From the NCBI GenBank assembly GCA_018266795.1, contig JAFDZV010000011.1:116129-180128 (forward strand): a DNA stretch of 64,000 bases. The letters are read 5' to 3'. How positions within the stretch are numbered: the stretch's first letter is position 1; each line of letters starts with the position of its first letter. The translations under genes and the position numbers were made by a program. The stretch comes from Bacteroidota bacterium. GTDB lineage: Bacteria > Bacteroidota > Ignavibacteria > OLB7. Below, piece after piece: positions 32,634 to 63,595 of this stretch. The notes under the pieces are model-generated. The model saw only the letters and a list, made by a program, of their open reading frames with translations. It did not search any database and was not told the DNA's origin.

Positions 32634-33149
32634 ATGCACGATACGTCCCATTCGCACGAGGTGATCGAGCAGATCCCCGGACAGATCGAGTTCTCGCCGG
32701 ATGAGCTGGCCCGAATCGAGAAGCTGAAGGCCCTGTACCCCAACCCCAAGTCCGCCATCATGCCGGTGCTCTGGATGGCCCAGAAGAAGTGGGGCTGGCT
32801 CTCGATCAATGTCATGCAGCTCGTTGCCGAGGTGATGAACCTCCCCTACTCCCATGTCTACGGCGTAGCATCGTTCTACACGATGTACTTCAAGAAGCCG
32901 ATGGGGCAGTATCACGTTCAGGTCTGCACCAATGTGAGCTGCATGCTGCTCGGTGGTGAGAAGATCTACGATCACGTGTGCCGGAAGTATGGCATCGGGC
33001 ACAACGAGCGCACCGCAGACGGCAAGTTCTCGCTGGAGGAAGTGGAGTGCATGGGAGCATGCGGCGGGGCGCCGATGGTGGCAATCAACGAGGATTACTA
33101 CGAAAACATCTCGATCGAGCGGCTGGACCAGATTCTTGACGCTCTTTAA
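32634..33149 (+). CDS. nuoE: NADH-quinone oxidoreductase subunit E (24-kDa, thioredoxin-like 2Fe-2S)
   Basis: A 171-residue complex I peripheral-arm subunit that binds the N1a [2Fe-2S] cluster. Helical start FSPDELARIEKLKALYPNPK, then VASFYTMYFKKPMGQYHVQVC. The four cluster cysteines are in CTNVSC and CMGAC (C-x4-C ... C-x3-C), followed by GGAPMVAINEDYYENI. The other nuo genes are not in the window, so the subunit is either encoded apart from the main operon or this is a local nuoE-type gene for another hydrogenase/dehydrogenase complex. The lack of nuoF next to it is notable. Confidence 0.95.
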   Translation: MHDTSHSHEVIEQIPGQIEFSPDELARIEKLKALYPNPKSAIMPVLWMAQKKWGWLSINVMQLVAEVMNLPYSHVYGVASFYTMYFKKPMGQYHVQVCTNVSCMLLGGEKIYDHVCRKYGIGHNERTADGKFSLEEVECMGACGGAPMVAINEDYYENISIERLDQILDAL

Positions 33150-34056: not shown

Positions 34057-34887
34057 ATGTCCTCGTCATCATTGGAACGACGACGCTTCCTTCGCAACAG
34101 CCTTGGCCTGGTTGTTGTTGCGTGCGGCTCGCCACGGACCGTTCTCGGCAGACTCACCCCCACGCTCTCGGTCACCGAATCCGGTTCGATCCTTGCAACC
34201 TACATCCTTCACCTGGCCGATTACCCGACGCTCGACAGCGTCGGCGGATCGGTAAAGCTGACGCAGCCCAACCTTCTTCAACTCAATCCGGACCATCGCT
34301 ATTACGGATCGACCGCGAAGCCCTTCCCGATTGCCGTTACGCGGGTAGCCGAGGCCGGCACGGATGCTTTCGTAGCGGTTTCAACCTACTGCACGCATGG
34401 AGCCGGCTATCAGCTTCGCGACTATGACCCGATCAACGGCGTCTTCGTCTGCCCGCACCAGGGCTCAACGTTCAAGGCGGACGGCACGCATGTAGTCGTG
34501 TCCAGAACGCCGAACGTGGGTAACCTCCGCAAGTTTACCGCAACCTACGATGAGGCCGCCGGAACGATAACGCTCGGGAACGTTCTCCAGATTGCAGGGA
34601 TCGAGCAGCACGCAGGCGGAGAGAACGGATTGTTCCTGGCCCCCTGCCTGCCGAATCCCGTGACATCATCCGCAACGTTCAGCTACGGGCTTCCGGCTCG
34701 GTGCGCAGTACACCTTGCGCTCTACGGCATGAATGGAACGGTGGCGCGGCAGATCGTTGAGGAAACACAGGAGGCAGGCGTTCACAGCGCAGACTTCAAT
34801 GCAGACGGCCTCCCCTCCGGAACCTATTTCTTCCGGCTTGCAACGTCGTTCGGAACGCTGACGCAGCAGGTGGAGATAGTACGATAG
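34057..34887 (+). CDS. Tat-exported Rieske-like protein with T9SS sorting domain, paralogue 1
   Basis: A 276-residue protein. Start ATG 34057 is supported by GGAG 9 bp upstream. Tat signal ERRRFLRNSLGLVVVACGS. Rieske-like domain at about 48-175: box 1 is YCTHG (Cys112, His114), box 2 is VCPHQGSTF (Cys132, His134, Gln135). In canonical Rieske domains box 2 is C-x-x-H, so the ligand His is one residue early and the normal position is Gln. The disulfide cysteines are also absent. Residues 190-276 are a T9SS CTD (PNPVTSSATF; LPSGTYFFRL) with a degenerate N-terminal motif. It should be a cell-surface or released protein after crossing via Tat. Cluster content is uncertain. Confidence 0.85.
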   Translation: MSSSSLERRRFLRNSLGLVVVACGSPRTVLGRLTPTLSVTESGSILATYILHLADYPTLDSVGGSVKLTQPNLLQLNPDHRYYGSTAKPFPIAVTRVAEAGTDAFVAVSTYCTHGAGYQLRDYDPINGVFVCPHQGSTFKADGTHVVVSRTPNVGNLRKFTATYDEAAGTITLGNVLQIAGIEQHAGGENGLFLAPCLPNPVTSSATFSYGLPARCAVHLALYGMNGTVARQIVEETQEAGVHSADFNADGLPSGTYFFRLATSFGTLTQQVEIVR

Positions 34888-34977
34888 CGCCTTGTCCAGA
34901 CTTAGTCCGACAATCTTGTTCTTGCCGGTCGCGAACGATCGGCTCTCAGAACAGTCACTCAGACGGAGCCTCGTTTG

Positions 34978-35030
34978 AAAACGGGAACGTTCGCACCAGG
35001 TTGAACAACGTGGCGCGGACGTTCCCGTTC
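34978..35030 (+). terminator. Hairpin terminator between the two Rieske-CTD genes
   Basis: AACGGGAACGT near 34979 pairs with ACGTTCCCGTT near 35019-35029 over a long loop. A short T-containing run follows (CGCGTTTC). It lies 90 bp after the first Rieske-CTD stop. Confidence 0.55.
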
Positions 35031-35213
35031 GCGTTTCAGGGAACGATTCACACCGGCGGGGGATCGCGTCGGGAACCATCAGCGATGCCGGAGGCTCCAA
35101 CACATTGCTCGCGGCGTGACGATTCACGCGGCAAATGGGTCGATCGAATATAGATTGTCCGGTGTTCCGGCAACCTCATGGCCAATTCGAACAACAGCAA
35201 ACGGATCCCCCCG

Positions 35214-36044
35214 ATGTCCCTCTCCTCCTCGCGCCGAGACTTTCTTCGGAATGCAATGAGCGTAGTGGTGCTTGCCTCCACCAGTCCTCTGATCGCTATC
35301 GGCAAGCTTACCCCGAGCATCCGGCAGACCGAATCGGGTCAGCTTGTTGCCACATATACGATTCTGCTGAACGACTACCCCGCGCTGCAGCCGGTGGGTG
35401 GATCCGTGAAGCTCACCAACCCGGATCAGCTTCTGCTCAATCCCGACCACGTGGAGCGCCACGGCTTCAGCGGGAAGGATTTCCCGATCGCCGTGACACG
35501 TGTTGCCGAAAGCGGCTCCGATGCCTTCAAGGCAGTCTCCACGTACTGCACGCACGGTTTCGACTTCCAGCTCAACGACTACAATCCCATCCTCGGCCAG
35601 TTCATCTGTCCGCACAAGGGCTCCACGTTTCTGGCCGACGGCACCCATGTGGACAAGTCCAACACGCCGCCGGTTGGTGACCTGCGAAAGTTTCCGGCAA
35701 CGTACAACGAGGCGCTTGGAGCGATCACGCTGGACAAGGTGCTTGGCGTGGAGGAGATCGAGAACATCGGCGGCGTCCCGACGGAGCTTTTTCTGGAGCA
35801 GAATTATCCGAACCCGTTCAACCCGACAACGCTTATCCGCTACGGCCTCCCAGCCCGTGCTTATGTGGAGCTGACGCTGCATACCCTGGACGGCCGAATC
35901 ATCGAGACGCTGGTTGCGGAGGATCAGGATGCGGGAACGTATGTGATGAACTATTCCGCCGATACGGTTCCATCCGGCACCTACTTCTACCGTCTGCGCG
36001 CGATGGGCCGATCGCTGACACGCCGGATGATTGTGGCGAAGTGA
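35214..36044 (+). CDS. Tat-exported Rieske-like protein with T9SS sorting domain, paralogue 2
   Basis: Exactly 276 residues, aligning without gaps through the key regions with paralogue 1. Start ATG 35214 (MSLSSSRRDF) is chosen by that alignment; ATG 35178 would add 12 residues. Tat signal SRRDFLRNAMSVVVLAS. Box 1 YCTHGFDF (Cys112, His114); box 2 ICPHKGSTF (Cys132, His134, Lys135), the same displaced-His variant as the neighbour. The CTD is canonical (LFLEQNYPNPFNPTTLIRYG; VPSGTYFYRLRAM). A terminator follows at 36087-36128. Predicted cell-surface location; redox role probable but unproven. Confidence 0.88.
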   Translation: MSLSSSRRDFLRNAMSVVVLASTSPLIAIGKLTPSIRQTESGQLVATYTILLNDYPALQPVGGSVKLTNPDQLLLNPDHVERHGFSGKDFPIAVTRVAESGSDAFKAVSTYCTHGFDFQLNDYNPILGQFICPHKGSTFLADGTHVDKSNTPPVGDLRKFPATYNEALGAITLDKVLGVEEIENIGGVPTELFLEQNYPNPFNPTTLIRYGLPARAYVELTLHTLDGRIIETLVAEDQDAGTYVMNYSADTVPSGTYFYRLRAMGRSLTRRMIVAK

Positions 36045-60781: not shown

Positions 60782-61240
60782 TCAGAAGTTCACATGCACC
60801 ATACCCGTGCTGGCATCGTACGTTGTCGTATAGGTCGTCAGCCGGTTCCTGGCGGGGCCGCGAAGCACCGCGCCCGTTGTATCAAACTCTGACCCGTGAC
60901 AGGAGCATAACATCACACCGTTCGACGGCGCGTCCAGTGTGCACCCCTCGTGCGTACAATTCATGGAGATCGCCACATAGGTGGTGGCGCTTTTCCGCAC
61001 GATCAGCAGCGGCGAGCCTTCAGGCCCGTTTCCGCTCGTCACCAGCGCCTGGTTGTCGCCGGTCAACGTGGATACATTGTAATCCGCCTGAACGTTGCCG
61101 GGGCCGCTGAGGGAATTGCAGCCGCTCACCACCGGCGAAGCCATGCCTACAATCGCAACTCCGACAATCCCCCACGTACATGCTTTCATGAAATCACGAC
61201 GGCCGATCGGCTGGTCGTTTCCGAGAATGTTCAATGCCAT
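60782..61240 (-). CDS. Tat-exported Rieske [2Fe-2S] lipoprotein (canonical type), copy 1
   Basis: A 152-residue protein. Tat signal GRRDFMKACTWGIVGVAIVG followed by a lipobox (VVSGC, Cys41), so it is probably a periplasm-facing lipoprotein. Rieske motifs are canonical: NCTHEGC (Cys95, His97, Cys100) and LCSCHGSEFD (Cys112, Cys114, His115), with the disulfide cysteines as well, consistent with a high-potential cluster. No transmembrane anchor like that of the bc1 complex is present. The ATG 61240 is chosen; an in-frame GTG at 61249 adds three residues. It is a paralogue of 63104-63595. Confidence 0.92.
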   Translation of the reverse strand: MALNILGNDQPIGRRDFMKACTWGIVGVAIVGMASPVVSGCNSLSGPGNVQADYNVSTLTGDNQALVTSGNGPEGSPLLIVRKSATTYVAISMNCTHEGCTLDAPSNGVMLCSCHGSEFDTTGAVLRGPARNRLTTYTTTYDASTGMVHVNF

Positions 61241-61325
61241 CGCACACACCCTTTTCGTAGTTCATAATCGTTGGCACACTTCCGTGTAGCGGGTATCCCC
61301 GGCATGCCCGAAGAATCACGGTACC

Positions 61326-61337
61326 GTTCATATGAAC
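61326..61337. promoter_or_regulatory. Palindrome GTTCATATGAAC upstream of the Rieske gene
   Basis: A perfect 12-bp palindrome 86 bp upstream of the Rieske lipoprotein ATG. It could be an operator. A single occurrence limits confidence. Confidence 0.3.
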
Positions 61338-61439
61338 CGGAGACGATGCACGGCATCACACTTATTTGTCTCGACGAGTAAAAAAGCAGGCCATCATCTC
61401 CTTGACGCACCATGATCAACATGATCCCCCACAGTCATC

Positions 61440-61630
61440 TCGAGCACCGCGAAGCGGGGCGTGGCGACCTTTCCCGTTCAACGTACCGAACCATCCCGGC
61501 CACAAGTGGGGCATCCCGCAAAGATCGCCATGGCTTCGCTGTGCGAAGCCTCGCGAAGACTACGGCTGGGTTCATTGCAGAGGAATACCCTGATGCTGTC
61601 GGGGTTGATCTTCTCACGATGACCCCGGGT
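61440..61630 (+). repeat. Dispersed repeat family B, full-length copy
   Basis: Shares CAACGTACCGAACC, the TCGCGAAGACTAC-GGTGGG-like core and a trailing GATGC-GTCG-GTTGA block with the reverse complement of 13145-13355 and with 10421-10520. Confidence 0.78.
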
Positions 61631-61932
61631 GGTATTGCAAAGGAACCCACTGACATCGCCGGAGTAAGGTTCCTCGCAATCACGATCAGGTTCTCGGTGT
61701 CTCAGGTAGGTTCGTATCCCCAAAGTCAGGCGGAGCCATCTCCGGTCGTGAGCGGCCGGCATGCGTGGCGGGATTGTTTGATGCTGGATGGCGTGTGAGT
61801 CTGTGTGCGCAGGTGGTGCGGGGGCGATGATGCGTAGAGCCGCGGAAGGCGGCGCCTGGGTCACTTGCGATTCGATAAGGAATTGCCACTCAGGCGCCGC
61901 CGCCGCCAACGTCAGTGGAAGCCGCCGTAACG

Positions 61933-63099
61933 TCAGTAGAACACGTGCAGTTGCAGCGTGTACTGCCCGAGGATATAGGCATCCGTGATCACGTACCGAT
62001 ATTCCGGGCGCAGCTCCACCAGCGGAATCGGGAAGAACTCCGCTCCAACAACAAACCCCTGGGCCGTCGCGATCGGGCGCGCCGGGTTCTCCGTGGTTCC
62101 ATGCTCGTACCTGCCGTTCAGCGTGAGCCACGGGTAGAGCTGGTAGCTTCCCATCACGCTGTAATTCCGGATTGTCCTGTTGTCCGCGTTGGAGGTCACC
62201 ATCATCTCCCCCTGCAGCGAGGCACGGTCGTTCAGCCCCGCTCCTGCAAACACGTTCAGCATCCGGAAGCGGCCGTTCCCGTAGATGGATGCCCCCACCT
62301 CGCCGTTCACCCCCTCCTCCAGCAATCGCGGCCAGAGCATCACGCGGGCCAGATAGGAGAGTTGCTTGGAGTCCACGGTGGGATCGGCCTGGGAGAGATT
62401 GCGCGCCGAGAACGCGCCGAGATTCACCGTGAGCCACTGCTGCCCTTCATATGTAAGCTCCGCTCCAACCTCGTTGTAGTTCGGGGCGATGATCGGCGCA
62501 GCAGACGAGGCAACATCGCGACGGATGAAGATCGTGTGATCGTCATATCGCAATCCGATACTCGGCTGGATGTATCCGGCCCTCAGCATCGGGGCCTCCA
62601 TCGACGGCTGATACTGAACAACGGCATCGAACGCCGTCTGCCCCGGATAGCGCAGCGGCCCGGCATTGTACGCTCCGTACAGCGTAAGCCCATCCAGCGG
62701 ATTGATTGCTATCGTGGGCGTGAGCTGCATCGGAATCACCATTCTCACGTCGTTTGGCGGGCGCCCAAGCTTCGCAACCTCGAAGCGCGTCTCGAGGCCG
62801 AAGGAGACCAGTCCGTTCCAGTACGTGTTGCTCTCGTTCGCACGCAGCCACGGCAGCCCGAGCGAGTCCACGTTGAAGGCCCCGACCTCGTTCATCGTGC
62901 TGTAGCCCAGGTCCGTGCGGATGGAACTTCCCTGCGGGTTGTAGTGGCATGCCGAACAGCGCGTGCCCGTGAGGAGCGCGAAGCGCGGGAGCGCCGTGGA
63001 GACGCTTGCCGAGCAGAGCAGCGCGGCAACCGTACAGAGCGCGACGGTACGTAGTACCGGACGATCGAAACGCGATGCCGCATGACGGCCGCCGGCCAC
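61933..63099 (-). CDS. Cyc2-like fused outer-membrane cytochrome-porin
   Basis: A 388-residue protein. Signal peptide (about residues 1-36: VALCTVAALLCSASVSTA) is followed directly by ALPRFALLTGTRCSACHYNP, with one haem-c motif Cys48-Ser-Ala-Cys51-His52 right at the mature N-terminus. The remainder (60-388) is a run of short amphipathic strands (GLVSFGLETRFEVAKLG; RMVIPMQLTPTIAINPL; GQQWLTVNLGAFS; EHGTTENPARPI) ending LQLHVFY, as in a beta-barrel with about 14-16 strands. This layout is that of Cyc2-type fused porins, which pass electrons across the outer membrane. GTG 63099 is preferred; starts at 63132 or 63141 overlap the Rieske gene and lengthen the signal. The electron donor or acceptor is unknown. 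Confidence 0.75.
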   Translation of the reverse strand: MAGGRHAASRFDRPVLRTVALCTVAALLCSASVSTALPRFALLTGTRCSACHYNPQGSSIRTDLGYSTMNEVGAFNVDSLGLPWLRANESNTYWNGLVSFGLETRFEVAKLGRPPNDVRMVIPMQLTPTIAINPLDGLTLYGAYNAGPLRYPGQTAFDAVVQYQPSMEAPMLRAGYIQPSIGLRYDDHTIFIRRDVASSAAPIIAPNYNEVGAELTYEGQQWLTVNLGAFSARNLSQADPTVDSKQLSYLARVMLWPRLLEEGVNGEVGASIYGNGRFRMLNVFAGAGLNDRASLQGEMMVTSNADNRTIRNYSVMGSYQLYPWLTLNGRYEHGTTENPARPIATAQGFVVGAEFFPIPLVELRPEYRYVITDAYILGQYTLQLHVFY

Positions 63100-63103
63100 G
63101 TTC

Positions 63104-63595
63104 CTAACTGAAGTGGATGGTAACGGTTCCATTGGCGGCATTGTATGTGGTTGTATAGGAGGTGAGCGACCGAACCGCGGGACCGTTCTGAACGGTGCCG
63201 TTCAGGTCGAACCGGGAACCGTGACATGGGCAGGAGATAACGCCGCCGCTGGGTGTGTTGACGGTACATCCCTCGTGGGTGCAGCTCATCGAAACCGCCG
63301 CGTACTGGTCCGCCGCCTTTCGGACAACGAGAACCGGAGATCCTTCCGGTCCGTTCTCGGCCGTTGCAAGTGCCTGGCCGTCCGCGGTAAGCGTGGTCAC
63401 GTCCACAACGATCTCGCTCGGGCCGCCGGCGCTGCGCACGATCGAGACCTCGCATCCGCCGAGAAGCGGCGGCGCAAGCGCCAGCACCGCACCAATGCCA
63501 AGCATGCGCGTACAGGAGCATATGAACTCCCGACGTTCGTCGTTCACCGGCGACGGTCCGCGCAGGGTATCACCGCCTTCGCTCTGATAGTTCAT
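63104..63595 (-). CDS. Tat-exported Rieske [2Fe-2S] lipoprotein (canonical type), copy 2
   Basis: A 163-residue protein. N-terminus ERREFICSCTRMLGIGAV is a Tat-like signal, then a lipobox LLGGC (Cys48). Rieske boxes: SCTHEGC (Cys105, His107, Cys110) and SCPCHGSRFD (Cys122, Cys124, His125), so a complete cluster with disulfide. It ends 4 bp before the GTG of the fused cytochrome-porin, strongly suggesting cotranscription. It is a close paralogue of copy 1 at 60782. Confidence 0.93.
   Translation of the reverse strand: MNYQSEGGDTLRGPSPVNDERREFICSCTRMLGIGAVLALAPPLLGGCEVSIVRSAGGPSEIVVDVTTLTADGQALATAENGPEGSPVLVVRKAADQYAAVSMSCTHEGCTVNTPSGGVISCPCHGSRFDLNGTVQNGPAVRSLTSYTTTYNAANGTVTIHFS

Follow-up and report, generated by a model that had tools for sequence, protein, structure and literature searches.

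Two tandem genes on the + strand of the window (the whole 64,000-nucleotide stretch of DNA analysed), P0001 (34057..34887) and P0002 (35214..36044), each encode a protein of 276 aa in which a Tat signal, a Rieske-fold domain and a T9SS type A tail are combined. Their start codons were chosen by motif. The two proteins are paralogues, 53% identical overall and 62% identical in the N-terminal part. The twin-arginine codons lie at 34078..34083 in P0001 (ERRRFLR) and at 35232..35237 in P0002 (SRRDFLR), and are followed by an NPDH motif that sits within an insert of their subclade (34285..34296 and 35439..35450 respectively). Box 1 of the putative cluster site reads C112-T-H114 in both proteins (34390..34398 and 35547..35555), and box 2 reads C132-P-H134-Q135 in P0001 (34450..34461) and C132-P-H134-K135 in P0002 (35607..35618), position 135 being that of the canonical ligand. 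A further histidine, H145 (34489..34491 and 35646..35648), is a candidate substitute ligand. The sorting domain occupies residues 199-272 of P0001 (34651..34872) and 198-274 of P0002 (35805..36035). A promoter/terminator scan gave no signal above chance. A sequence-only reading of this DNA had described two 276-residue frames with C-T-H in box 1 and C-P-H-Q/K in box 2, and both are found at these coordinates. It had also held that a change present in both copies is no sequencing error; we agree, since two open copies that have diverged this far make such an error very unlikely, and we discarded sequencing or frame error as the source of the box-2 change.

Pfam detects the Rieske domain weakly in P0001 (E 1.2e-4) and under its gathering score in P0002 (0.035). 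An AlphaFold2 model made on a 38-row alignment had a mean pLDDT of 86, and Foldseek matched it to the solved Rieske domains 8hn2 (Chlorobaculum tepidum), 9rk4 (Kuenenia kuste4569) and 5cxm (PetC3), with TM by target length of 0.60-0.69; the tail of the model is similar to PorZ and to the C-terminal domain of mirolase. On this model, P0001 and P0002 are Rieske-fold proteins. They share with the Rieske [2Fe-2S] proteins (PF00355) the predicted fold, the two ligand loops, the C-x-H of box 1 and the box-2 cysteine, but differ in having Gln or Lys for the box-2 histidine, a histidine at +2, the new His145, the NPDH insert and the T9SS tail. The four-ligand set of a Rieske cluster is CxH ... CxxH, whereas P0001 and P0002 have CTH ... 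CPHQ and CTH ... CPHK, that is, three of the four standard ligands. Because this set is incomplete, we file them as Rieske-fold proteins and not as proven Rieske cluster proteins.

The C-P-C-H of the solved Rieske proteins aligns without gaps to the C-P-H-Q/K of P0001 and P0002, and the difference is therefore a substitution; a change in the length of box 2 is ruled out. This bears out the view that the histidine has moved by one residue, with Gln or Lys at the normal ligand position: the +3 histidine is replaced and +2 is now His. In the 38-member alignment, column 135 (+3 of box 2) is His in 35 members, the exceptions being P0002 (K), P0001 (Q) and one same-genus homologue (K, Q or T across the three). 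Histidine at column 134 is limited to P0001 and P0002, as is histidine at column 145, which elsewhere is mostly Val, Tyr or Leu; the loss of H135 thus coincides with the gain of both H134 and H145 in each copy, and the second gain had not been remarked on before. The suggestion that C-x-H/C-x-H might be a clade-wide variant did not survive alignment with homologues, as the arrangement is absent from the other 36 of the 38 members and from the other Rieske frames read. All other members that retain a second histidine have C-x-x-H or a longer spacing, and we conclude that the change is local and derived. Homologues with standard C-x-x-H, which the sequence-only reading took as a sign of local error, do therefore exist; they imply no error. 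The histidine of NPDH is unlikely to be a substitute ligand, given that NPDH is present both in L009, which has all the ordinary ligands, and in L008, which has no ligand histidine.

Box 2 takes the form CxxH in 31 of the 38 members, CxxxH in three, Cx6H in one and CxH in two (P0001 and P0002), and one member is without a ligand histidine. A box 2 other than CxxH was found in 7/41 tailed frames and in 0/~40 tail-less frames (Fisher p 0.012, for sequences that are non-independent and represent about four events). The longer box-2 spacings seen in tail-less Rieske proteins are apparent only, arising from an extra upstream Cys; on inspection all end in CxxH. The CxxxH forms are CVKGH in L056:950-1756 + and L062:1026-1832 +, and CTSGH in L059:659-1396 -, while the Cx6H form is CLNPDTGH in L057:702-1490 -.

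The family was found by a profile search of 391 unevenly sampled genomes of the class, followed by reading of the loci. The Tat-Rieske-T9SS layout is present in eight or more families within the class (f1, f6, f10, f19, f24, f27, f29 and f30), mostly with ordinary CxH/CxxH boxes, and two of the members come from genomes deposited as Chlorobiota metagenome assemblies. No clear tailed member from outside the class was seen among the best matches in 396 genomes from the phylum. In an IQ-TREE phylogeny all tailed members form one group (87/94), within which P0001, P0002, L008 and L009 make up a subgroup (100/97) and P0001 and P0002 are sisters (99/90). The NPDH insert is common to this subgroup, whose members came from just three genomes, all belonging to a single family; a contig scan for further members returned only the two relatives already known. 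The canonical Tat-Rieske-T9SS relatives (L010, L011, L019, L020, L030 and others) have the whole architecture and a common origin with P0001 and P0002 in the tree, but differ from them in keeping CxH/CxxH and in having no NPDH insert. The joining of Tat, Rieske and T9SS elements is thus a wide and old architecture, and a broader result than the displaced histidine.

Two further arrangements were seen among the loci read. At L041, L045, L050, L055, L056, L058, L060 and L062 the tailed Rieske gene is directly followed by one for a tail-less, lipoprotein-like Rieske protein with the boxes CTHDxCFG ... CTCHG or CECHG, which suggests a conserved gene pair in several genomes. Two single proteins, L064:1060-1905 + and L065:882-1766 +, carry two Rieske domains in tandem behind one twin-arginine signal.

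The joining of a Tat signal to a T9SS sorting domain, proposed earlier from the sequence, holds for both proteins. In each, the twin-arginine motif is of the RRxFL type and precedes a moderately hydrophobic stretch; the Tat call rests on this motif and its conservation (37/38 alignment members) and not on a dedicated predictor, and the Pfam TAT_signal model matched 7/38 members. The tails of P0001 and P0002 score 25.4 and 32.6 bits respectively with TIGR04183 (T9SS type A), both above the cut-off of 23, and fall under the gathering score of PF18962; across the alignment a tail was detected in 35/38 members by TIGR04183 and in 37/38 by PF18962. The genome from which the window comes, hereafter the host genome, encodes TatC, SprA and PorU. 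In possessing this C-terminal sorting domain in a host with SprA and PorU, P0001 and P0002 are like other type A cargo, but they differ from the usual cargo in bearing a twin-arginine and not a Sec signal, and a domain of Fe-S type.

The host genome encodes at least 150 type A cargos, and we read the N-termini of 128 of 150. A loose RR pattern was present in 17/128, and a strict RRxF on inspection in 5/128, namely P0001, P0002, two DUF1501 proteins and one protein with a Dioxygenase_C domain; judged by sequence, the remaining loose-RR cargos seem to have Sec signals in which the arginine pair is coincidental. The two DUF1501 proteins and the Dioxygenase_C (intradiol dioxygenase-like) protein are L145, L155 and L154, encoded at C44:40457-42212, C10:52547-54269 and C24:3157-4279.

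Reviews state that T9SS cargo has an N-terminal Sec signal, in place of which P0001 and P0002 show the twin-arginine pattern. According to a 2023 review, every T9SS effector bears a Sec signal and is exported in the unfolded state (PMC10202324), and the sequence-only reading had likewise named Sec for described T9SS cargo; Sec is likewise named as the route for T9SS substrates elsewhere, with the outer membrane being crossed in the folded state (PMC9251779). Export through Sec in unfolded form, with folding in the periplasm, would provide no simple delivery of an Fe-S cluster built in the cytoplasm. No paper linking Tat or Rieske proteins with T9SS was found, the searches returning just one review on an unrelated matter, and the Tat-T9SS combination is undescribed in the literature that we searched.

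Upstream of the pair, a gene for a NuoE-like thioredoxin-like [2Fe-2S] protein (32634..33149, +) marks a syntenic place common to G001, a genome of the same genus. It is directly followed by P0003 (33351..33767, +), which encodes a Sec-like signal and a T9SS tail with no Rieske domain between them. Because the P0003 tail is 74% identical to that of L008, higher than to any other cargo compared, we read P0003 as probably a third Rieske copy that has lost its domain. L008 occupies the syntenic place in G001, with polysaccharide-deacetylase-like and NuoE-like genes before it and an RNase Y-like gene after it. It reads CGPS..CETG and has lost both ligand histidines together with the RR, and its Rieske domain is no longer detected by Pfam or Foldseek. 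This joint loss matches the prediction that the need for Tat is driven by the cofactor, although it is a single case (n = 1). Elsewhere, G001 has an ordinary tandem pair, L019 and L020.

The region around the altered boxes is the best conserved part of P0001 and P0002. Residues 92-147 are 77% identical (dN 0.18, dS ~1.5), compared with 57% (dN 0.38) for residues 33-91 and 38% for the tail. Because dS exceeds 1.2 throughout, in combination with a low dN in the cluster region, we believe that the pair is old and that the site has been held, dS being near saturation and the ratios rough. Either metal is held in a new way in these proteins, or it has been lost.

Our preferred explanation, which we hold tentatively and at slightly less than an even chance, is that P0001 and P0002 are surface Rieske-fold proteins, exported by Tat and then by T9SS, in which the cluster site has been rebuilt around H134 or H145. 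Folding, and probably metal loading, would take place in the cytoplasm, after which the proteins would cross the inner membrane via Tat; the type A tail would then be recognised by T9SS in the periplasm, and the folded protein would pass the outer membrane via SprA, with the tail being cut off by the PorU sortase. C112, H114 and C132 would stay as ligands, and H134, which perhaps arose through a CPHHG ancestor, or H145 would take over the role of H135. The most likely function of the family is electron transfer at or near the surface. In an archaeal Rieske ferredoxin the loop-2 histidine can be changed to Cys and the cluster still forms, whereas the loop-1 histidine does not tolerate this (PMC2946596); the loop changed in P0001 and P0002 is loop 2, the one that tolerates change in that protein. 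Against a rebuilt site we count that a histidine at +2 would demand rearrangement of the loop, and against the explanation as a whole the loss of ligands and RR in L008, the domain loss in P0003 and the sub-threshold Pfam score of P0002.

The same observations could mean that P0001 and P0002 are cluster-free, being either at an intermediate stage in losing all their ligands or, as L008 seems to be, surface scaffolds or binding proteins that have no cofactor. One standard ligand is absent from both copies, a same-locus relative has lost its ligand histidines and its RR, only signal and tail are left in P0003, and departures from CxxH spacing were seen in tailed members only. Retention of RR and of three standard ligands in both copies, with low dN in the best-conserved region, argues the other way. 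Moreover, G001, which has the ligand-less copy, retains an ordinary pair elsewhere in its genome, and no ordinary tailed Rieske pair was found in the host genome; constraint was thus lost in G001, which still has ordinary copies, and not clearly in the host genome. We consider cluster loss the main rival and a real possibility, although one that we are inclined to doubt. Alternatively, C112, H114, C132 and H134 might hold a single Zn or Fe, as in a zinc ribbon or rubredoxin, for a structural or simple redox role. The two boxes are now alike, C-x-H and C-x-H, Rieske loops resemble those of rubredoxin and zinc ribbons, and in a designed archaeal Rieske mutant a single iron was bound as Fe(Cys)4 (PMC2946596). 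However, no natural example was found in this analysis, the remainder of the domain is still Rieske-shaped in the model, and Zn alone would not account for the use of Tat, making a mononuclear site quite improbable.

In some Rieske proteins an uncleaved Tat signal serves as a membrane anchor. P0001 and P0002 could similarly stay at the inner membrane and never reach the surface, their tails being a decoy or remnant, and the sub-gathering PF18962 scores and the diverged tail of P0001 would fit this. We think it unlikely, because both tails exceed the TIGR04183 cut-off and the modelled tail is like PorZ and the end domain of mirolase, because a tail is kept across nearly the whole clade, and because the host genome has T9SS parts and many other cargos.

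Returning to the preferred reading, a more general proposal is that a Tat-T9SS relay displays folded, metal-loaded proteins at the surface, with Rieske proteins as one of its main cargos in the class, and that the ligand set of this lineage is new (C-x-H/C-x-H or C-x-H/C+H145); taken as a whole we regard this as somewhat unlikely. If true, this old and widely kept clade of Rieske proteins that pair a Tat signal with a T9SS tail would constitute a delivery route, and the stated rule for T9SS cargo would need revision. The displaced ligand offers a natural test of how far a Rieske site tolerates rebuilding, and the ordinary, displaced and ligand-free copies form a ready series inside one bacterial family.

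Tat-exported Rieske subunits, both those of the bc1/b6f type and tail-less Tat Rieske proteins, resemble P0001 and P0002 in combining a Tat motif with a Rieske domain, but have no sorting tail, and all the tail-less ones read here keep CxH/CxxH. Two such tail-less Tat Rieske proteins with ordinary boxes are encoded within the window at 60782-63595 on the - strand, one with CPCHGS (63104-63595) and the other with CSCHGS (60782-61249). Between them lies a gene (61933-63141, -) for a protein of 402 aa that resembles an outer-membrane barrel and carries the haem motif CSACH, and from its sequence this Rieske/barrel/Rieske cluster is a possible periplasm-to-outer-membrane electron chain.
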